Of a stretch of DNA of 51,394 nt, positions 3,885 through 17,040 are shown one piece after another. Numbering within the stretch: the stretch's first letter is position 1; each line of letters opens with the position of its first letter. The DNA lies in the IMG/VR virus record IMGVR_UViG_3300028490_000011, positions 1 through 51,394 of that record. The stretch is one strand, 5' to 3'. This stretch comes from a virus. Below the pieces are notes generated by a model that made no database searches, was not told the DNA's origin, and saw only the letters and a program-made list of their open reading frames with translations. Made by a program: the position numbers and the translations under genes.

Positions 3885-4116
3885 TCCAAAGCACCTCTTT
3901 AATTTTATCAGTATCAACATCATGTTTAGCCATCGTAGCCAACACAGTCTGTACCTCTTGCATCACAATCTCTTTGATTTCATTATGCTTACGTTCCCAA
4001 ACCTTTTGTGTACCTCTTGAAATATCAAGTTTAGCACAAATAGTTTTCTGAAGTAAGTTACCGTTACCAATCGCATCTTTATATTTAAAGTAGTTATATT
4101 GTTTATGCTCTGCCAT
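3877..4116 (-). CDS. Hypothetical small helical protein
   Basis: 79 residues starting MAEHKQYNYFKYKDAIG. A central basic stretch (ISRGTQKVWERKHNEIK) precedes a long amphipathic helix. LLQKTICAKLDISRGTQKVWERK resembles a helix-turn-helix, so a small DNA-binding protein is possible. Its start shares a base with the previous stop. Confidence 0.68.
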   Translation of the reverse strand: MAEHKQYNYFKYKDAIGNGNLLQKTICAKLDISRGTQKVWERKHNEIKEIVMQEVQTVLATMAKHDVDTDKIKEVLWND

Positions 4117-4502
4117 TACCGTGTCACTCCTGAAATTTCAAGTTTACCAATCATATCTAAACACTCATCAAGCTTCTCAACCGTATCAAACCACAGTGTG
4201 TTACCCTCGTCATCAGTTTCACTCAATGAAAAGATAATAGACCCTGCTAATGGACAGTCACCAACTTTAGAAACCACGTTACCACTAACAAGGAGTCCTT
4301 CGTCCGAAACCCATGCAAGTACGCCATTTGGCAAATATGCAACCGTTACTGTTCTACACTCAATATGCTTATACAACCAATCCAATGTACCGTCTTGTGT
4401 AGGAGCTTCTAACACTTCTGTATTAATTTTGATACGTTTACCTCTTGGTGTATCTAAAATCTCATAACTCACTTTTACTGCTTTGTTTATCGTATTACTC
4501 AT
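4116..4502 (-). CDS. Hypothetical protein
   Basis: 128 residues starting MSNTINKAVKVSYEILD. Alternating beta strands (VTVAYLPNGVLAWVSDEGLLVSG) with conserved-looking Gly and a C-terminal helix (VEKLDECLDMIGKLE). No catalytic motif recognised. It follows the gap 4503-4615 and probably has its own ribosome binding site (AAAGGATTAG). Confidence 0.7.
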   Translation of the reverse strand: MSNTINKAVKVSYEILDTPRGKRIKINTEVLEAPTQDGTLDWLYKHIECRTVTVAYLPNGVLAWVSDEGLLVSGNVVSKVGDCPLAGSIIFSLSETDDEGNTLWFDTVEKLDECLDMIGKLEISGVTR

Positions 4503-4615
4503 GACTAATCCTTTATATTTAATTGTTTAGTATCTCAGTCAAAAATACTAATCAGCTTGCACCACTTTCAATGCAAACCAATTAATGTTTTATTTTATTT
4601 TATTAAGGCTCACTT
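4503..4615 (-). promoter_or_regulatory. Intergenic gap with possible promoter
   Basis: This 113-base AT-rich gap contains, on the minus strand, a TTGACT hexamer about 18 bases before an ATATAA-like hexamer and the ribosome binding site AAAGGA before ATG 4502. It also has a (TTTTA)3 run around 4590-4605. A weak internal promoter is plausible. Confidence 0.3.
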
Positions 4616-4972
4616 TTAGGCTACCATATTTACCTCAATTTTGGTAGCGATATGACCCGTAGCCATAATGGAAATCATAGCCATTCTGTACTGTTTATTG
4701 CTATAGACATAATATGCCGACTCAATAGTAAGTGCGTTGTCTAATCTTTGCATGATGTTTTTAGAATTACCATCAACATCATGAGTTGCTACATTTTGGT
4801 AATCAGGCATAGACCCACCTTCTGCAACTGCTACAGCAACCCAACTTCTCTGACCTGCTCTCTTAACCAAAAACCAATGACCGTCAATAGTTTTCACCAA
4901 TACTCTATCGTTATCACTCATAGCTCTATCTTTAGGGCTGAATATTTCTGTGTGGTCGTATTTATAAATCAT
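4616..4972 (-). CDS. Hypothetical protein
   Basis: 118 residues starting MIYKYDHTEIFSPKDRAM. Strand-rich N-terminal half (DRVLVKTIDGHWFLVKRAGQRSWVAVAV) and a helical second half. It lies directly downstream of the AAA+ ATPase and DUF7192-like pair and may belong to that module. Family not recognised. Confidence 0.7.
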   Translation of the reverse strand: MIYKYDHTEIFSPKDRAMSDNDRVLVKTIDGHWFLVKRAGQRSWVAVAVAEGGSMPDYQNVATHDVDGNSKNIMQRLDNALTIESAYYVYSNKQYRMAMISIMATGHIATKIEVNMVA

Positions 4973-4974
4973 AA

Positions 4975-5838
4975 TTAAGCCTTTTTATTTTCAAATAATA
5001 TATCTTGCAATTCATCCATCGCTCTCTCATCAAATATCGGTGTAATCTCACGATAGTTAAATACTCCACCCATACCATAAGTAGGTGATAATTTCTTATC
5101 TAACAATACCTCTCTAAGCATGAACATACCACGTCTTTGTAGTGACGGGCTAACCATCGCACTCATCTTTGCATAATTGATAGACTCGTTAAAATCCTTA
5201 ACCGTCATAACAGTTAGCAAGTCAATCTTATTTTTAGCACCCGACTTGGTAGCTCTCTCAGTGTATAGCCAATTTTCAAGTTTAACCTTATAACCATCTT
5301 TCTCAAGTTTATCAATCATCCCTAATACTCTCCCTGCACCCTTGATAATCTTCTTAGCATTAGTTGAACTACTTGCAAGTGTGGTAATTCTAACCGTAAT
5401 CTCATCCGGTAATTCTGCTTTAGACGGCTTAACCCAACATTCAGGCTCACCACTCAAAACTTTACCAATATCAAAATACAATCCCTCAGTATCATACATT
5501 GAACTATTTGTTACAAGCGTAGCAAATTCTTTACTTGCTTTTTTCTTCTCAACGATAATCTCGTTCATCACGTTCTTGTCACCACGCTTAATCACTTGCA
5601 ACCAATCTTCAACCGTATCAGACCCTCTCCAACCCGTATAGTCCACGTCCATAGACCGATTATGCTTTATGTTGGCATGGACTTTATCATCCATTGTAGT
5701 TTGCATCCAATTACCCAAATCATTTATTGACTTGATAACAAATACAGCACCCACAGTTTTCTTTACATCGCCTAACGTAATTTCTTTATCAAGTTGGACG
5801 GTTACACCCGTTCCAAAATACTTTAGATTATTTTTCAT
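4975..5838 (-). CDS. DUF7192-like partner protein of the AAA+ ATPase
   Basis: 287 residues from ATG 5838 (MKNNLKYFGTG), which shares a base with the ATPase stop (TAATG). The segment LYFDIGKVLSGEPECWV matches the pattern I associate with phage DUF7192 proteins (vDvg.yl.GePecm). RGMFMLREVLLD and a hydrophobic core around it are typical of that group. Such proteins accompany CobS/MoxR-type ATPases in phages; their function is unknown. The family name is from memory of the motif and should be treated as probable. Confidence 0.5.
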   Translation of the reverse strand: MKNNLKYFGTGVTVQLDKEITLGDVKKTVGAVFVIKSINDLGNWMQTTMDDKVHANIKHNRSMDVDYTGWRGSDTVEDWLQVIKRGDKNVMNEIIVEKKKASKEFATLVTNSSMYDTEGLYFDIGKVLSGEPECWVKPSKAELPDEITVRITTLASSSTNAKKIIKGAGRVLGMIDKLEKDGYKVKLENWLYTERATKSGAKNKIDLLTVMTVKDFNESINYAKMSAMVSPSLQRRGMFMLREVLLDKKLSPTYGMGGVFNYREITPIFDERAMDELQDILFENKKA

Positions 5839-6908
5839 TATTCCCAATCTCCTAACATATCATCAATTGTTGGCTCATCATCGTTATCAGCTACAACATC
5901 TACAATCACCTCTTTAGGCTCAGGTATTACAACATCATCAATTGTTGGCTCAGTCGCATCCTCAGTGACTACAGCCACATTTTTACGGTTAGCTTCAATC
6001 ATCGTTACCAATTTTGTGTTATCGTCAATAACATTTTGCATAATCGTTCTGCCGTCATCGTCAATACCTTTAAACAGTGTAGCGTTCAAAATCTTATCAA
6101 GTGGTTGACTCGTGTTTTTCAGCAAGTTTGCAGTTTTATAGAACACTCTTGGAGTCAAGTTATACCCATCAATCGCAATCTCAACGTCCTCTTTAATCTT
6201 CATGATTAGGTCGAATAGTGGAGTGTTGTTAGTGTACAGCTTGACCAAATCCTCATCAAAGCCGTAATCAATCGCCACAAATCTATCTTGTGTAGCAAAA
6301 TCTAATTGTTTACGTCCATTATACTTGGCACTTGCACCGTTTAAATCAGTGTTAGCACAAGCTACTACTCGGAAATCCTCATGAGTGAATACTAATCCAT
6401 CAGGAGTGTCAATAAACCCGTTATCAATCAGTGAGTTAATCACCAACAATACTCCGGACTCCCCTGCATCAAATTCATCAAGTAAGGCGATTTTACCTAA
6501 TCTTGCACATTCTACTAATGAAGTGGGAACGTAATCACCATTCGCATTAATGAATCCAATAAGGTTGGATTGTGTAGTTTGTGAACTAAATGATACAGAC
6601 CTAAATTCAAGCCCTAAAGCATCAGCCAATTTTACAACACTTGAAGTTTTACCAACACCTGCACCACCAAATAGCAGTACGTTTTCTTTAGCGTTAACAT
6701 ACTCCAATAGTTCTTGAAATTGCTTATGTACAGCACCAATATTTTTTGTAGTGCCGTCAATACGCTTAATCTCTACAGTCTTGACCATATTTTGCGTTAC
6801 AGCTTCTAACTGTTTATTGATTAGCTCGTTAATATTTAACGCTTCTAATTTTCCGTTTACAGCATCAGTTACGATACCACCTAATGTTTCTTCTAATAAA
6901 TTACTCAT
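5838..6908 (-). CDS. MoxR/CobS-like AAA+ ATPase
   Basis: 356 residues. Walker A GGAGVGKT at about 81-88, Walker B KIALLDEFD at about 139-146, sensor 1 in VVACANTD near 181-188, and an arginine-finger-type TQDRF near 205. The C-terminal tail repeats EPTIDD twice in an acidic linker. This architecture is that of the CobS/MoxR branch, whose members remodel partner proteins; many phages carry CobS-like genes unrelated to cobalamin synthesis. The partner is probably the coupled 4975-5838 product. No von Willebrand domain protein is nearby, which is unusual for a MoxR system. Confidence 0.85.
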   Translation of the reverse strand: MSNLLEETLGGIVTDAVNGKLEALNINELINKQLEAVTQNMVKTVEIKRIDGTTKNIGAVHKQFQELLEYVNAKENVLLFGGAGVGKTSSVVKLADALGLEFRSVSFSSQTTQSNLIGFINANGDYVPTSLVECARLGKIALLDEFDAGESGVLLVINSLIDNGFIDTPDGLVFTHEDFRVVACANTDLNGASAKYNGRKQLDFATQDRFVAIDYGFDEDLVKLYTNNTPLFDLIMKIKEDVEIAIDGYNLTPRVFYKTANLLKNTSQPLDKILNATLFKGIDDDGRTIMQNVIDDNTKLVTMIEANRKNVAVVTEDATEPTIDDVVIPEPKEVIVDVVADNDDEPTIDDMLGDWE

Positions 6909-13242: not shown

Positions 13243-14790
13243 ATGTCAGTAACACACGTTAAAGATTTTACGCATCGTACACTATCTAAGGATGATGTAT
13301 CGCAGCACCACATAGAGTATGACCAACACGTACACCAAGTGCGTTTAATCAATGACGTGTATGATGGTATTGACTCGGCAGTTCAGTACCTTTTCTCGTT
13401 TCCACAAGAGATACCTGAGACATTTGAAACAAGACAGGCTAGAGCCACACTTCGTAACTTTGTAAAGAGAGCAGTCCAAGCCTTTACGGGTATGATTTTT
13501 CGTAAGCCACTAGAGATTGATGGTTATGGGCTTAGGACTACAAAACTTTTCAAGACGATTGACACAAACCAAACTATCGAAAACTTCACAAAAGAGATTA
13601 CCGGAGCACTTACCAAAGATGGTGTGACTTATATTTTAGCCGACTCTCCTCAGAAGGGAACAGACGGAAAACCATACCTGATGCACATTGACCGTTCACA
13701 AGTAATCAATTGGCGTAAAGATGAGTATGGTAGATACACAATGGTTGTAATAGAAGAAATTGTTGCAGAGCCTTATGGTGAGTTTGGAACTGAGTACATC
13801 AAGCAGTGGAGAGTCTATAAGCTAATTGAAAAAACAGTTACCATAACTTTGTATCGTGCCAACACAGCAGGAGCAACTACCACTAAAATCAAAACCACAA
13901 AACTCAATACGGGAACATACGTTGCAGCAGACCCAATCGAAACTGAGTTTAATTCTATCCCCCTAATTGAGATTGTTGTAGATAAGACACCTATCCTTTA
14001 TGACATAGCAAAACTGAATGTCAAACACCTAAACAGACTATCACATAAAGACCGTTACTTGACAATGGCAGCATTACCTATTCCCGTTATTTGGGGTGCA
14101 GATGTTGATGACCACGGTAATACAAATACGGCTAAACCTGCATTGGTTATTGGGGTTGATGAAGCGTTTATCTTCTCATCAAAAGAAGAGGGTGACTTTC
14201 AGTGGAGAGAGCTTAGTGGTGATTCAATTGACCAATTAGAGAATGACCTTAATTCAATTGTTGAAGATATTACAACGGGTATTTTGAGAGCAGCAGAGTC
14301 AGCAAACAGTGTGCAGAAGACAGCTACAGAGGTTCAACTACTACAAGCAGAAGCATCAAACAGAGTTACGGCTATTGCAAATGCTGTTGAGGTTGGCATG
14401 AAGACTGCACTCGTTATCCTATCTGAGATTAACAATGAAGCTGTACCTGAGAAGGCTGCGTTCATTATCAACAAAGACTTTAACGCTGCACTTATGGGTT
14501 CTGATGGAGCACGTATTGTTATGGAGAGTTACTTAACGGGTATGATTTCTATGGAGACTTACCTACAGGCTATGTCAGATATGGAGCTTATTAATATCGA
14601 CTCGGCTAAGGATGAGATTGCGAGAATTGCAGCAGACAATTTTGTTCCCGTTCCAAAGATAGCACCAACAGAAAAAACTGTATCAGATAAAACGGATAAC
14701 AAGTCTGAGCTTAAAGATGACGGTAAAACTGATAAAGAAAAAGCAGATAAAAAACTAGACAAAAAGACAGACGAGAAGCCTAAAGAATAA
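13243..14790 (+). CDS. Portal protein (DUF4055-like)
   Basis: 515 residues. ARATLRNFVKRAVQAFTGM and IFRKPLEIDG near residues 66-96 fit the DUF4055 group of phage portal-like proteins. Long helical segments near 355-420 (VEDITTGILRAAESANSVQK) match portal stem/wing helices. The last about 30 residues are a Lys/Asp-rich low-complexity tail, probably disordered. It follows terminase and precedes scaffold and capsid, the standard portal position. It forms the dodecameric channel for DNA entry. Confidence 0.8.
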   Translation: MSVTHVKDFTHRTLSKDDVSQHHIEYDQHVHQVRLINDVYDGIDSAVQYLFSFPQEIPETFETRQARATLRNFVKRAVQAFTGMIFRKPLEIDGYGLRTTKLFKTIDTNQTIENFTKEITGALTKDGVTYILADSPQKGTDGKPYLMHIDRSQVINWRKDEYGRYTMVVIEEIVAEPYGEFGTEYIKQWRVYKLIEKTVTITLYRANTAGATTTKIKTTKLNTGTYVAADPIETEFNSIPLIEIVVDKTPILYDIAKLNVKHLNRLSHKDRYLTMAALPIPVIWGADVDDHGNTNTAKPALVIGVDEAFIFSSKEEGDFQWRELSGDSIDQLENDLNSIVEDITTGILRAAESANSVQKTATEVQLLQAEASNRVTAIANAVEVGMKTALVILSEINNEAVPEKAAFIINKDFNAALMGSDGARIVMESYLTGMISMETYLQAMSDMELINIDSAKDEIARIAADNFVPVPKIAPTEKTVSDKTDNKSELKDDGKTDKEKADKKLDKKTDEKPKE

Positions 14791-14804
14791 TTGTAGTACA
14801 AATA

Positions 14805-14813
14805 TGTTACAAT
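14805..14813 (+). promoter_or_regulatory. Late promoter upstream of scaffold
   Basis: TGTTACAAT, an extended -10 with one mismatch in the hexamer, 48 bases before the scaffold ATG. No -35 seen. Confidence 0.5.
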
Positions 14814-14821
14814 GACCGATA

Positions 14822-14859
14822 GCGATGGATTTCGCAATAAACTTATGATGGAGTTCATA
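14822..14859 (+). promoter_or_regulatory. Two GGA-loop hairpins in the scaffold leader
   Basis: GCGA-TGGATT-TCGC (14822-14835) and TATGA-TGGAGT-TCATA (14844-14859). Different stems present nearly the same six-base loop, which suggests a conserved RNA element. In the second, the ribosome binding site GGAG of the scaffold gene lies in the loop, one base before the ATG region. The A-N-GGA loop is the known recognition shape of CsrA/RsmA. Confidence 0.5.
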
Positions 14860-14860
14860 T

Positions 14861-15598
14861 ATGACAATAGCAGACGTAGCAGCAACACTGCAAAGCACAA
14901 ACCCCGAAGCGGCTCAAGCCCTTACGGATTATCAGACAAACTTTAATAACACTCTTGGTAGAGTGGCGACATTAGAAAAAGACATTAAGGGTGCTGCTGA
15001 AAAGCGTGACTCTTTGAAGACAATCATTAGAAACGCAACCGGACTTGAAGACGTTAATGAAAATGCTCTTACTGAGTTCTTAACTTCTAAAGGTGATGGA
15101 CAAGCAGACATATTCAAAAAAGAGATTACTGAATTACAGACTCGTTTGAGTGAAGGTGCTAACGCAGTTGATGAAGTATCCAATAAGTATGAAGGTCAAA
15201 TCTTTGGTCTTAAATTAGATAGAGCCGTTAATATGCTTGGTGCAAGTAATGAAGTTCATTCTCCTCACGCATACGGAGTAATTCTTGAAGAGTTAGCTAG
15301 AGGTGCAAACTTTGATGGTGACGAGATTGTATATAAAAATCAAGACGGTACAAGTGTGTTCACTCAAGACGGTCAGCCTGCCGGAATTAAATCTCGTTAT
15401 GAGGAAATGAAAGCTGATGAAAAGTTCTCATACTTATTTAAAGAGCAGTTCAAGTCAGGTGGTGGTAAAGCACCAAGTGGTCCGACAACAAACGACCAAG
15501 GTGCAACACTCAAGCGTTCAACAATGACGGACGTAGACAAGGCAAAGTATATTGCTAAAAATGGCATGGCTTCTTACAAGGGCTTACCTCTAAAATAA
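14861..15598 (+). CDS. Capsid scaffolding protein (putative)
   Basis: 245 residues, acidic and helical in the first 120 (VATLEKDIKGAAEKRDSLK), Gly/Lys-rich toward the end (KEQFKSGGGKAPSG). No Cys. It lies between portal and major capsid genes, the usual scaffold slot, and looks like the helical, low-hydrophobicity scaffold type. A protease domain is not seen, so it is probably a non-cleaved scaffold. Confidence 0.7.
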   Translation: MTIADVAATLQSTNPEAAQALTDYQTNFNNTLGRVATLEKDIKGAAEKRDSLKTIIRNATGLEDVNENALTEFLTSKGDGQADIFKKEITELQTRLSEGANAVDEVSNKYEGQIFGLKLDRAVNMLGASNEVHSPHAYGVILEELARGANFDGDEIVYKNQDGTSVFTQDGQPAGIKSRYEEMKADEKFSYLFKEQFKSGGGKAPSGPTTNDQGATLKRSTMTDVDKAKYIAKNGMASYKGLPLK

Positions 15599-15607
15599 CT
15601 TCCGTTT

Positions 15608-15697
15608 CCTGTGCACAGGTTGGTCTTTGTCTGCCGTAAAACATTGTGAGACTTTATACACCTCACGTAGCAACTCCAATTGCTAATCTTCTATGTG
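15608..15697 (+). other. Hairpins after the scaffold gene
   Basis: A 12-bp palindrome CCTGTGCACAGG (15608-15619) is followed by alternative stems: TAGCAA/TTGCTA (15668-15685) or the larger CACGTAG/CTATGTG (15664-15670 with 15691-15697, one G-U) followed by ATTTTTG. The latter can act as a terminator; the two are mutually exclusive. Confidence 0.4.
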
Positions 15698-15708
15698 ATT
15701 TTTGTTAG

Positions 15709-15740
15709 ACGGTGCTATCCTTTCAAGCACCGTTTGACTT
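15709..15740 (+). terminator. Terminator-like hairpin before the tRNA-like element
   Basis: ACGGTGCT / AGCACCGT, 8-bp perfect stem (15709-15716, 15726-15733) with a 9-base loop, followed by TTGACTTT. It would end the portal-scaffold transcript. Confidence 0.6.
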
Positions 15741-15743
15741 TAT

Positions 15744-15825
15744 GGTGTGGTATCTCAGTTGGTAGAGCACTACCCTTACTTAGCTGTAACGGCAGCCGTC
15801 CTCGGTTCGAGTCCGAGCCACACCT
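15744..15825 (+). tRNA. tRNA-like element with an abnormal anticodon arm
   Basis: Acceptor GGTGTGG/CCACACC (15744-15750, 15818-15824), D-arm CTC-AGTTGGTA-GAG (15754-15767) and T-arm CTCGG-TTCGAGT-CCGAG (15801-15817) are all normal, with five variable bases CCGTC. The anticodon stem CTACC/GGCAG (one A-C mismatch) encloses 16 bases (15775-15790) instead of 7, and inside them TTAC pairs with GTAA, leaving a six-base loop TTAGCT. No standard anticodon loop exists. The CCA end is not encoded (TCA follows). Isotype cannot be assigned; it may be a structural decoy, a processing signal or a decayed tRNA. Confidence 0.7.
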
Positions 15826-15832
15826 CATTTTA

Positions 15833-15897
15833 TGGCTTCGTGTTATCCCCCATACTAACTGCGTGATGCACTCTTGTCAAACGAGAGCGAAGCCACC
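15833..15897 (+). ncRNA. Second, truncated tRNA-like element
   Basis: TGGCTTCG (15833-15840) pairs with CGAAGCCA (15888-15895). Immediately inside the 3' strand is a T-arm-like hairpin CTCTT-GTCAAAC-GAGAG (15871-15887) keeping C56 and A58 positions of a T-loop; ACC follows the acceptor. Only 30 bases remain for the other arms, too few for a full tRNA. A plain hairpin terminator is the alternative. Confidence 0.4.
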
Positions 15898-15900
15898 TAT

Positions 15901-15930
15901 TTGACTTTATAATATAATCTATGCTATCAT
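15901..15930 (+). promoter_or_regulatory. Major capsid gene promoter
   Basis: TTGACT (15901-15906), 18-base spacer, extended -10 TG-C-TATCAT (15922-15930). The leader to the capsid ATG is about 130 bases and contains the GGA-loop hairpins. Confidence 0.6.
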
Positions 15931-15940
15931 TTCAATATAT

Positions 15941-16024
15941 GTTCTTGGATGAGGACTAATAATAAATGATGGATTTCATTTTGATGACCCTAACCTGATG
16001 TGAGCAACAAAGATGGATTTCCTT
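15941..16024 (+). promoter_or_regulatory. Three GGA-loop hairpins in the capsid leader
   Basis: GTTCT-TGGATG-AGGAC (15941-15956), AAATGA-TGGATT-TCATTT (15964-15981) and AAGA-TGGATT-TC(C)TT (16010-16024, one bulge). Stems differ while the loop keeps TGGAT, matching the scaffold leader hairpins. The capsid ribosome binding site (AAGGAAATAAATT) lies outside them. A CsrA-type protein or a phage factor may bind here. Confidence 0.5.
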
Positions 16025-16068
16025 AGAGCTTCTAACTAAAAAAACACAAAACTATAAGGAAATAAATT

Positions 16069-17040
16069 ATGTCAACAACTTTCGCAACTGACTTAGTAAT
16101 TGATAACGAACTTGTACGTTTAGGTATTGTTGAAACTCTCGAACAAAATGTCGATGGTTTTAATGCTTCTTCAAATGGTACAATCACACTTGGCTCTGTA
16201 GCCCTAGAAAACGACTTCGCAGATGAGTCATTCATTAAAGCACTTGCTAGTGCAGACCTTGTTCAGCGTAGAGATTACCTTGGTACAGGAACAGTAGCAC
16301 CTAAGAAACTCGTAGAAGATGCAGTTAACACTGTTAAACTTTCTCGTAGATATGGTCCATTCTCAACATCTTACGATGCTTGGAATAGAAGTAACCGTTC
16401 TGTAGAAACATTCTCATTGGCAATTGGTAAGCAACTTGGTGTTGCAATCGCTGCTGATATGTTGAACACTGTTCTTGGTGCAGGTGTTGCAGGTATTCAA
16501 GCGACTCAGGCAGCTATCGGTGACGGTACAGCAGTATTTGATTATACTAACATCGTTGACGGTCTTGCATCACTTGGTGATAAAGCAGGTAGAGTTGAAA
16601 TGCTAGTAATGCACTCTAACACTTACTTCTCAACAGTTGACAAAGGGCTTTCTATGAACGCACTTGAAAATGTTGGTGGTATGACTATCCGTGAGGGTGG
16701 AGCTTACTCACTTGGTCTTCCTGTTCTTGTAACTGACTCACCTGCACTTGATAATGGTGATGGTACATTTAACGTACTTGGTCTTACTAACGATGCTCTT
16801 AGAGCTATTGAGTCTGACGACACTATCATGAAAGCACAAGACGTTCTTCTTAATGAGAACATTGAGCATATCATTCAAGGTGAAGGTTCATTCAACGTAG
16901 GCGTTAAGGGTTGTAAATTTGACCCATCTAAAGCTAACCCTATTGATGCTGACCTTGCAACTGTAGCAAATTGGACTTACTTGTTCTCTGATGTTAAATC
17001 AGGTGCAGGTTTCATGCTAAAGCTAAAAGCTAGAGCGTAG
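16069..17040 (+). CDS. Major capsid protein
   Basis: 323 residues. Features typical of HK97-fold capsids: an early ANTI-like LGIVETLEQN region, a QRRDYLGTG-APKKL segment, helix-rich IGKQLGVAIAADMLNTVLGAG, and a late GAYSLGLPVLVTDSPAL segment like the P-domain strands of coat proteins. Position after scaffold, own promoter and long leader indicate the most highly expressed structural gene. No N-terminal protease-cleavage delta domain is evident. Confidence 0.88.
   Translation: MSTTFATDLVIDNELVRLGIVETLEQNVDGFNASSNGTITLGSVALENDFADESFIKALASADLVQRRDYLGTGTVAPKKLVEDAVNTVKLSRRYGPFSTSYDAWNRSNRSVETFSLAIGKQLGVAIAADMLNTVLGAGVAGIQATQAAIGDGTAVFDYTNIVDGLASLGDKAGRVEMLVMHSNTYFSTVDKGLSMNALENVGGMTIREGGAYSLGLPVLVTDSPALDNGDGTFNVLGLTNDALRAIESDDTIMKAQDVLLNENIEHIIQGEGSFNVGVKGCKFDPSKANPIDADLATVANWTYLFSDVKSGAGFMLKLKARA

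Follow-up and report, generated by a model that had tools for sequence, protein, structure and literature searches.

The window, by which we mean the whole stretch of viral DNA analysed (a virus record of 51,394 bases), contains a head region with genes for the portal (13243-14790), a head scaffolding protein (14861..15598, plus strand; phrog_206, E 2.8e-12, with PF06810 below cut-off) and the major capsid protein (16069..17040, plus strand; phrog_247, E 5e-39). The latter two are the genes considered here as regulated, and a promoter is predicted in the leader of each. That of the scaffold leader is recognized by an extended -10 element, TATGTTACAAT (14803..14813, plus strand), located 12 nt upstream of the leader's first TGGA; that of the capsid leader is of the sigma-70 type (15901..15930, plus strand; TTGACT, 18 nt, TATCAT with extended TATGC), with 15 nt between its -10 and the first TGGA of that leader. 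Between the scaffold and capsid genes, directly 5' of the capsid promoter, there is a tRNA-Gly gene with anticodon ACC (15744-15826), similar to tRNA genes of Sulfurovaceae and other Campylobacterales. At a distance from the head genes, on the minus strand (4116-6908), a block encoding a DUF3846-like protein, a DUF7192 protein and an AAA_5 (phrog_249-like) ATPase is common to the window and the relatives G634, G636 and G637, and missing from G638.

Hairpins in the scaffold and capsid leaders

The earlier note on this DNA had described five hairpins with a GGA loop in the two leaders. Four of them, all on the plus strand, are exact, with stems of 4-6 bp: scaffold-leader hairpin 1 (14822..14835; gcga-TGGATT-tcgc) and hairpin 2 (14844..14859; tatga-TGGAGT-tcata), and capsid-leader hairpin 1 (15941..15956; gttct-TGGATG-aggac, including one G-U pair), which has equivalents in six relatives, and hairpin 2 (15964..15981; aaatga-TGGATT-tcattt). 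The placement of the scaffold ribosome binding site in one of the loops is likewise borne out, in that the Shine-Dalgarno (SD) motif GGAG (14850-14853) lies inside the loop of scaffold-leader hairpin 2. The fifth site, 16010-16024, has the loop TGGATT but not a continuous stem, its local helix comprising 2 bp, an A-C mismatch and a further 2 bp (-0.4 kcal/mol). It is the core of a two-part capsid-leader hairpin 3 (16002..16031, plus strand), in which an outer GAGC/GCTT helix and an internal loop precede GA-TGGATT-TC. On its own this hairpin is weak in the window (-1.8 kcal/mol), and its equivalents in related phages are more stable (-7.0 kcal/mol in L004, -5.2 in L019, -4.7 in L035 and -3.5 in L020).

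Hairpin 3 overlaps a segment, ATTTCCTTA (16017..16025, plus strand), complementary to the capsid SD region TAAGGAAAT (16055-16063); the pairing of the two, which excludes hairpin 3, appears in the fold of the window leader and has a counterpart in L020 (ATTCCTTTT/AAAAGGAAT). A full or partial complement of the capsid SD is found in L008, L019 and L020 and is absent in L004. A general switch between hairpin 3 and SD pairing was considered and rejected, the pairing being strong in the window, L008 and L020, weak in L019 and missing from L004. Single-sequence folds of the window leaders are no better than those of shuffled sequences (z 0.6, 0.0 and -0.9), indicating that the window hairpins are locally weak.

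In the 326 nt of the window leaders there are four TGGA hexaloops with a stem of at least 4 bp, compared to a mean of 0.03 in shuffles (reached in 0 of 1000). Across the whole window, NGGANN hexaloops on stems of at least 4 bp occur about once per 3 kb, and four of them lie in the two leaders; TGGA hexaloop hairpins elsewhere in the window are rare, and none of these is in a leader. The enrichment extends to the leaders of related phages (2,901 nt), with 31 TGGA hexaloops on stems of at least 5 bp against a shuffle mean of 0.17 and a maximum of 2 (0/1000), that is, about 180-fold, and with 38 against 0.44 at stems of at least 4 bp (0/1000); some of these leaders come from closely related phages (L044/L046 and L041/L058), so the counted sites are in part non-independent. 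U is the first loop base in all 38 NGGANN hexaloops of the relatives' leaders. When the loop was not preset, TGGA still began 34 of the 57 sense-strand hexaloop hairpins in all leaders, and hexaloop hairpins on the antisense strand of the leaders gave no comparable TGGA peak.

Covariation and spread among related phages

Relatives of the window were collected with capsid, scaffold, portal and terminase profiles, and examination of their leaders, as the earlier note had proposed, revealed UGGA loops that are kept on stems that differ. The loop persists even across phages whose scaffold proteins match that of the window at only 26-33% identity. Scaffold-leader hairpin 2 of the window recurs unchanged in L008, in which the counterpart of capsid-leader hairpin 2 carries a compensatory pair change (AACGA-TGGACT-TCGTT, as compared to AATGA-TGGATT-TCATT in the window). 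Both the portal gene and the capsid gene of L008 are interrupted by a shift of frame (tblastn pieces in different frames), most simply through assembly or sequencing errors. The capsid leader of L004 bears three hairpins with stems unrelated to those of the window (ggcg-TGGATG-cgcc, gtcg-TGGATT-cgac and tcg-TGGACT-cga). In L020, the scaffold leader combines an exact copy of window hairpin 1 (GCGA-TGGATT-TCGC) with GGTA-TGGATT-TACC, and the capsid leader has three further TGGA hairpins; a tRNA-Ser (GCT) gene is located in this phage at 3924-4015, between the terminase and portal genes. In L019, cgttta-TGGATT-taaacg spans the scaffold start codon. Equivalents of scaffold hairpin 1 with other stems are found in L022-L026, L044-L046, L061 and L066.

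A second clade (L021-L026, L041-L046, L058 and L061-L066), with portal proteins 42-48% identical to that of the window, has two tandem hairpins between the portal and scaffold genes, the second spanning the SD and the start codon (e.g., ggacaTGGATAtgtc, with the ATG in the 3' side). The element is also present in the capsid leaders of L035 and L037, and the UGGA hairpin was not found in the scaffold leaders of L032, L035, L036 and L038. The nearest cultured phages (TerL 44-50%, portal below 27%) were rejected as close relatives, and in the four of them that were inspected the head leaders are without TGGA hairpins.

The 5-nt stem arms of 39 unique hairpins are of 33 kinds, and these hairpins are closed by A-U in 18 cases, G-C in 14, U-A in 5 and U-G in 2. 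Loop positions 1-4 were preset in this tally, their support deriving from the unbiased count of 34/57, and of the two remaining positions the fifth is U in 30, C in 4, G in 4 and A in 1, the sixth A in 17, U in 15, G in 7 and never C. In an alignment of the tandem scaffold leaders (A9; its L025 row is slightly misaligned at hairpin 2), 7 of 13 pairs show compensatory changes on both sides, 90% of the cells are paired, a share that falls to 39-48% if one strand is shifted against the other, and none of 500 shuffles attained the covariation score. RNAalifold, given no structure, recovers the same two helices and additionally pairs loop positions 1 and 6 (U-A/U-G), which suggests that the UGGA loop could be a tetraloop, GGAN, closed by a U-N mismatch or pair. 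The claim that GGA-loop hairpins of the scaffold and capsid leaders are under selection at the RNA level is thus upheld: the loop is kept, the stems covary and the frequency is far above that in shuffles. Comparative analysis at the sequence level establishes a covarying, sense-strand hairpin family conserved at head-gene leaders, definable as a putative RNA operator repeat in which a stem of 4-10 bp and free sequence carries the hexaloop U-GGA-Y-(A/U/G).

The place of the repeat within the predicted transcripts is also conserved. The distance from the extended -10 (TATGNTATAAT-like) to the first TGGA is 12-17 nt, with a mode of 14, in most leaders, and that from the capsid -10 is 13-17 nt in L004, L008, L019, L020, L035 and L037. 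Assuming a start 6-8 nt past the -10, this spacing, as judged from the predicted promoters, would put hairpin 1 right at the 5' terminus of the head mRNA. The last scaffold-leader hairpin usually contains the SD, the start codon or both. In the capsid leaders of the window, L008, L019, L020 and L004, TGGA sites are 22-28 and then 37-45 nt apart, and the last is about 46-55 nt before the start codon; in phages of the window type, the three-hairpin capsid leader is situated 45-125 nt upstream of the capsid start and hence clear of the ribosome footprint.

Probable hosts and the CsrA question

The hosts are probably Sulfurovaceae. L004 is a contig in a Sulfurovaceae metagenome-assembled genome (MAG) that includes a second phage contig, and the late region of the window has matches of at least 450 bases at 67-73% identity in 3 of 175 Sulfurovaceae genomes; among 180 genomes of the order, such long matches occur in the same MAG only. 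Short phage contigs can be misplaced in MAG binning, which is why the assignment is given as probable. No convincing spacer-type match to the late region was found in Sulfurovaceae, most short matches being to the tRNA-Gly gene. The possibility that the hosts use the tandem element in a regulon of their own was rejected, the covariance model of the tandem scaffold leader having returned only noise (e.g., coding regions) in 175 Sulfurovaceae genomes and 387 genomes of the phylum. From this result, the element looks phage-borne.

The earlier note had suggested host CsrA as a possible reader of the loops, either timing scaffold and capsid synthesis or being soaked up by the leaders. The resemblance to known CsrA targets is real: the leader hairpins have GGA in the loop, and their layout is like that of the Campylobacter jejuni flaA 5' UTR (PMC4894983), in which a pair of small GGA hairpins with hexaloops is spaced about 21-23 nt apart, the second covers the ribosome-binding site, compensatory changes occur and an abundant structural protein is regulated. 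Moreover, hairpin 2 reads CAUGGA in many relatives, which is compatible with the C. jejuni CsrA SELEX consensus mAwGGAs (PMC6692469), and CsrA could, judged by motif, bind some of these hairpins in a CsrA-bearing host. In detail, the loops differ from CsrA sites. The flaA sites are ANGGAN-type hexaloops (PMC4894983), with GGA at loop positions 3-5, whereas the phage loop is U-GGA-Y-N, with GGA at positions 2-4, a base pair right before the U and no fixed A. Of the 39 unique sites, 18 have A two bases ahead of GGA, 14 have G and 7 have U; in L004 all three sites have G. A at this base was present in 51 of 51 SELEX ligands (PMC6692469).

The genomic evidence likewise argues against CsrA. PF02599 was detected in 1 of 120 Sulfurovaceae genomes compared to 76 of 120 genomes of the order, the latter count demonstrating that the search works in this group; csrA is thus nearly missing from Sulfurovaceae though present in most sampled Campylobacterales. 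It was found neither in the MAG containing L004 nor in the window, nor in any of 14 records of related phages, of which several are fragments. A is lacking at more than half of the sites, the register differs, the probable host family is nearly devoid of csrA and none was found in the phages; unlike CsrA/RsmA sites, moreover, the element tracks phage head genes. The CsrA claim is thus not supported. That host CsrA occupies the GGA loops to repress scaffold, as on flaA, and tunes the capsid mRNA or is sequestered by it, is in our judgement unlikely for this phage. The repeated GGA-loop hairpins are reminiscent of CsrB/RsmZ-type sponge RNAs, but are located in mRNA leaders, in only two or three copies and without an Rfam match; if CsrA is absent, the sponge idea loses its basis.

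A putative translational operator of head assembly

Based on the collective evidence, we consider it rather probable that the leaders carry a translational operator for a putative RNA-binding protein, encoded more likely by the phage than by the host. The phage is favoured as the source because the element follows the phage clade, a host regulon is lacking and the obvious host reader is missing. The scaffold leaders of the window and its relatives share a feature of phage translational operators of the gp43, RegA and coat type, namely a hairpin with a conserved loop that covers the ribosome-binding site or is close to it. A close analogy is with the DNA polymerase (gp43) operator of T4 and RB69 (PMC3014915), where an mRNA hairpin at or next to the ribosome-binding site keeps its loop while the stem differs between species. 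The gp43 operator is read by a protein (PMC3014915), as is proposed here for the UGGA hairpins, and it consists of one hairpin at a replication gene, unlike the two or three copies at head genes found here. By the mechanism proposed, a dimeric or multimeric RNA-binding protein would read the UGGA loops. Its binding to the scaffold hairpin that holds the SD or start codon would keep ribosomes out and so repress scaffold, and capsid also where it is in the same operon. At the capsid leader of the window-type phages, its binding would shield the mRNA or activate it, or else the leader would titrate the protein, with the net effect that scaffold and capsid output would be balanced.

As regards the reader itself, the genes that hairpin-bearing phages share and that are absent from G638, the one hairpin-free relative compared, encode an AAA_5 ATPase, a DUF7192 protein, a protein weakly similar to DUF3846 and two small proteins of the structural region. 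None of the genes shared by four hairpin-bearing phages is annotated as RNA-binding, the AAA_5 ATPase, DUF7192 and weakly DUF3846-like proteins included. The scaffold or capsid protein is a possible reader as well. The specific proposal that a phage-encoded, non-CsrA protein reads the UGGA hexaloops, represses scaffold, is bound by the capsid leader and so sets the scaffold-to-capsid ratio is put forward tentatively, as possible rather than probable.

The hairpins might instead act without any trans factor, as 5'-terminal stem-loops that shield the mRNA from decay, with a weak SD stem to tune translation. The start of hairpin 1 at the predicted transcript start and the SD or start codon under hairpin 2 are both consistent with that; yet such a role requires stems and not a constant loop, when it is the UGGA that is kept while the stems vary, and up to three copies occur, of which two lie clear of the 5' end as well as of the SD, making this option improbable. 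A fixed promoter-proximal position and a loop conserved over the stem are characteristic of boxB-type signals, and the same features here would agree with a boxB- or put-like signal for processive antitermination or pausing on the nascent RNA behind the head promoters. Translation control accounts better for the copies that cover the SD and start codon of scaffold, and no N-, Q- or LoaP-like gene was detected among the scanned proteins, so that we regard such a signal as very improbable. Even less credence is given to cleavage of the loop by an endoribonuclease that cuts at GGA, such as T4 RegB, or to its pairing with a small antisense RNA whose own loop reads AUCCA. RegB does cut GGAG/U, best with GGA unpaired, but it acts on early mRNAs, and the late transcripts of T4 are all resistant (PMC3014915); the predominant U at loop position 5 would allow pairing with AUCCA, but a recurrent ATCCA-loop hairpin beyond the element's own antisense was not found in four phages.

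The translational operator thus remains the preferred reading, and the UGGA element is a new RNA element, outside Rfam, of a kind already known. Rfam matches in the window only the tRNA (15744-15825) and, at E<=5, nothing relevant in the leaders; a literature search, in which subscription journals were scarcely covered, found no report on capsid-leader RNA motifs, on CsrA acting on capsid mRNA or on the element. Control of the scaffold-to-capsid ratio in dsDNA phages is known in detail for a few models only. In P22, the scaffolding protein regulates its own synthesis at the post-transcriptional level in relation to coat assembly, and we know of no repeated UGGA hairpin operator in that phage.

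Lastly, our study has importance in identifying a compact, reused and covarying RNA element as a mark of head-gene leaders across an entire clade of uncultured phages. It cautions that a GGA hairpin does not necessarily imply CsrA, and it offers a defined bait for a new phage RNA-binding regulator. If the tentative reading given above, with a phage-encoded protein other than CsrA, is true, head assembly in phages of Sulfurovaceae and relatives would have a post-transcriptional operator system of its own.
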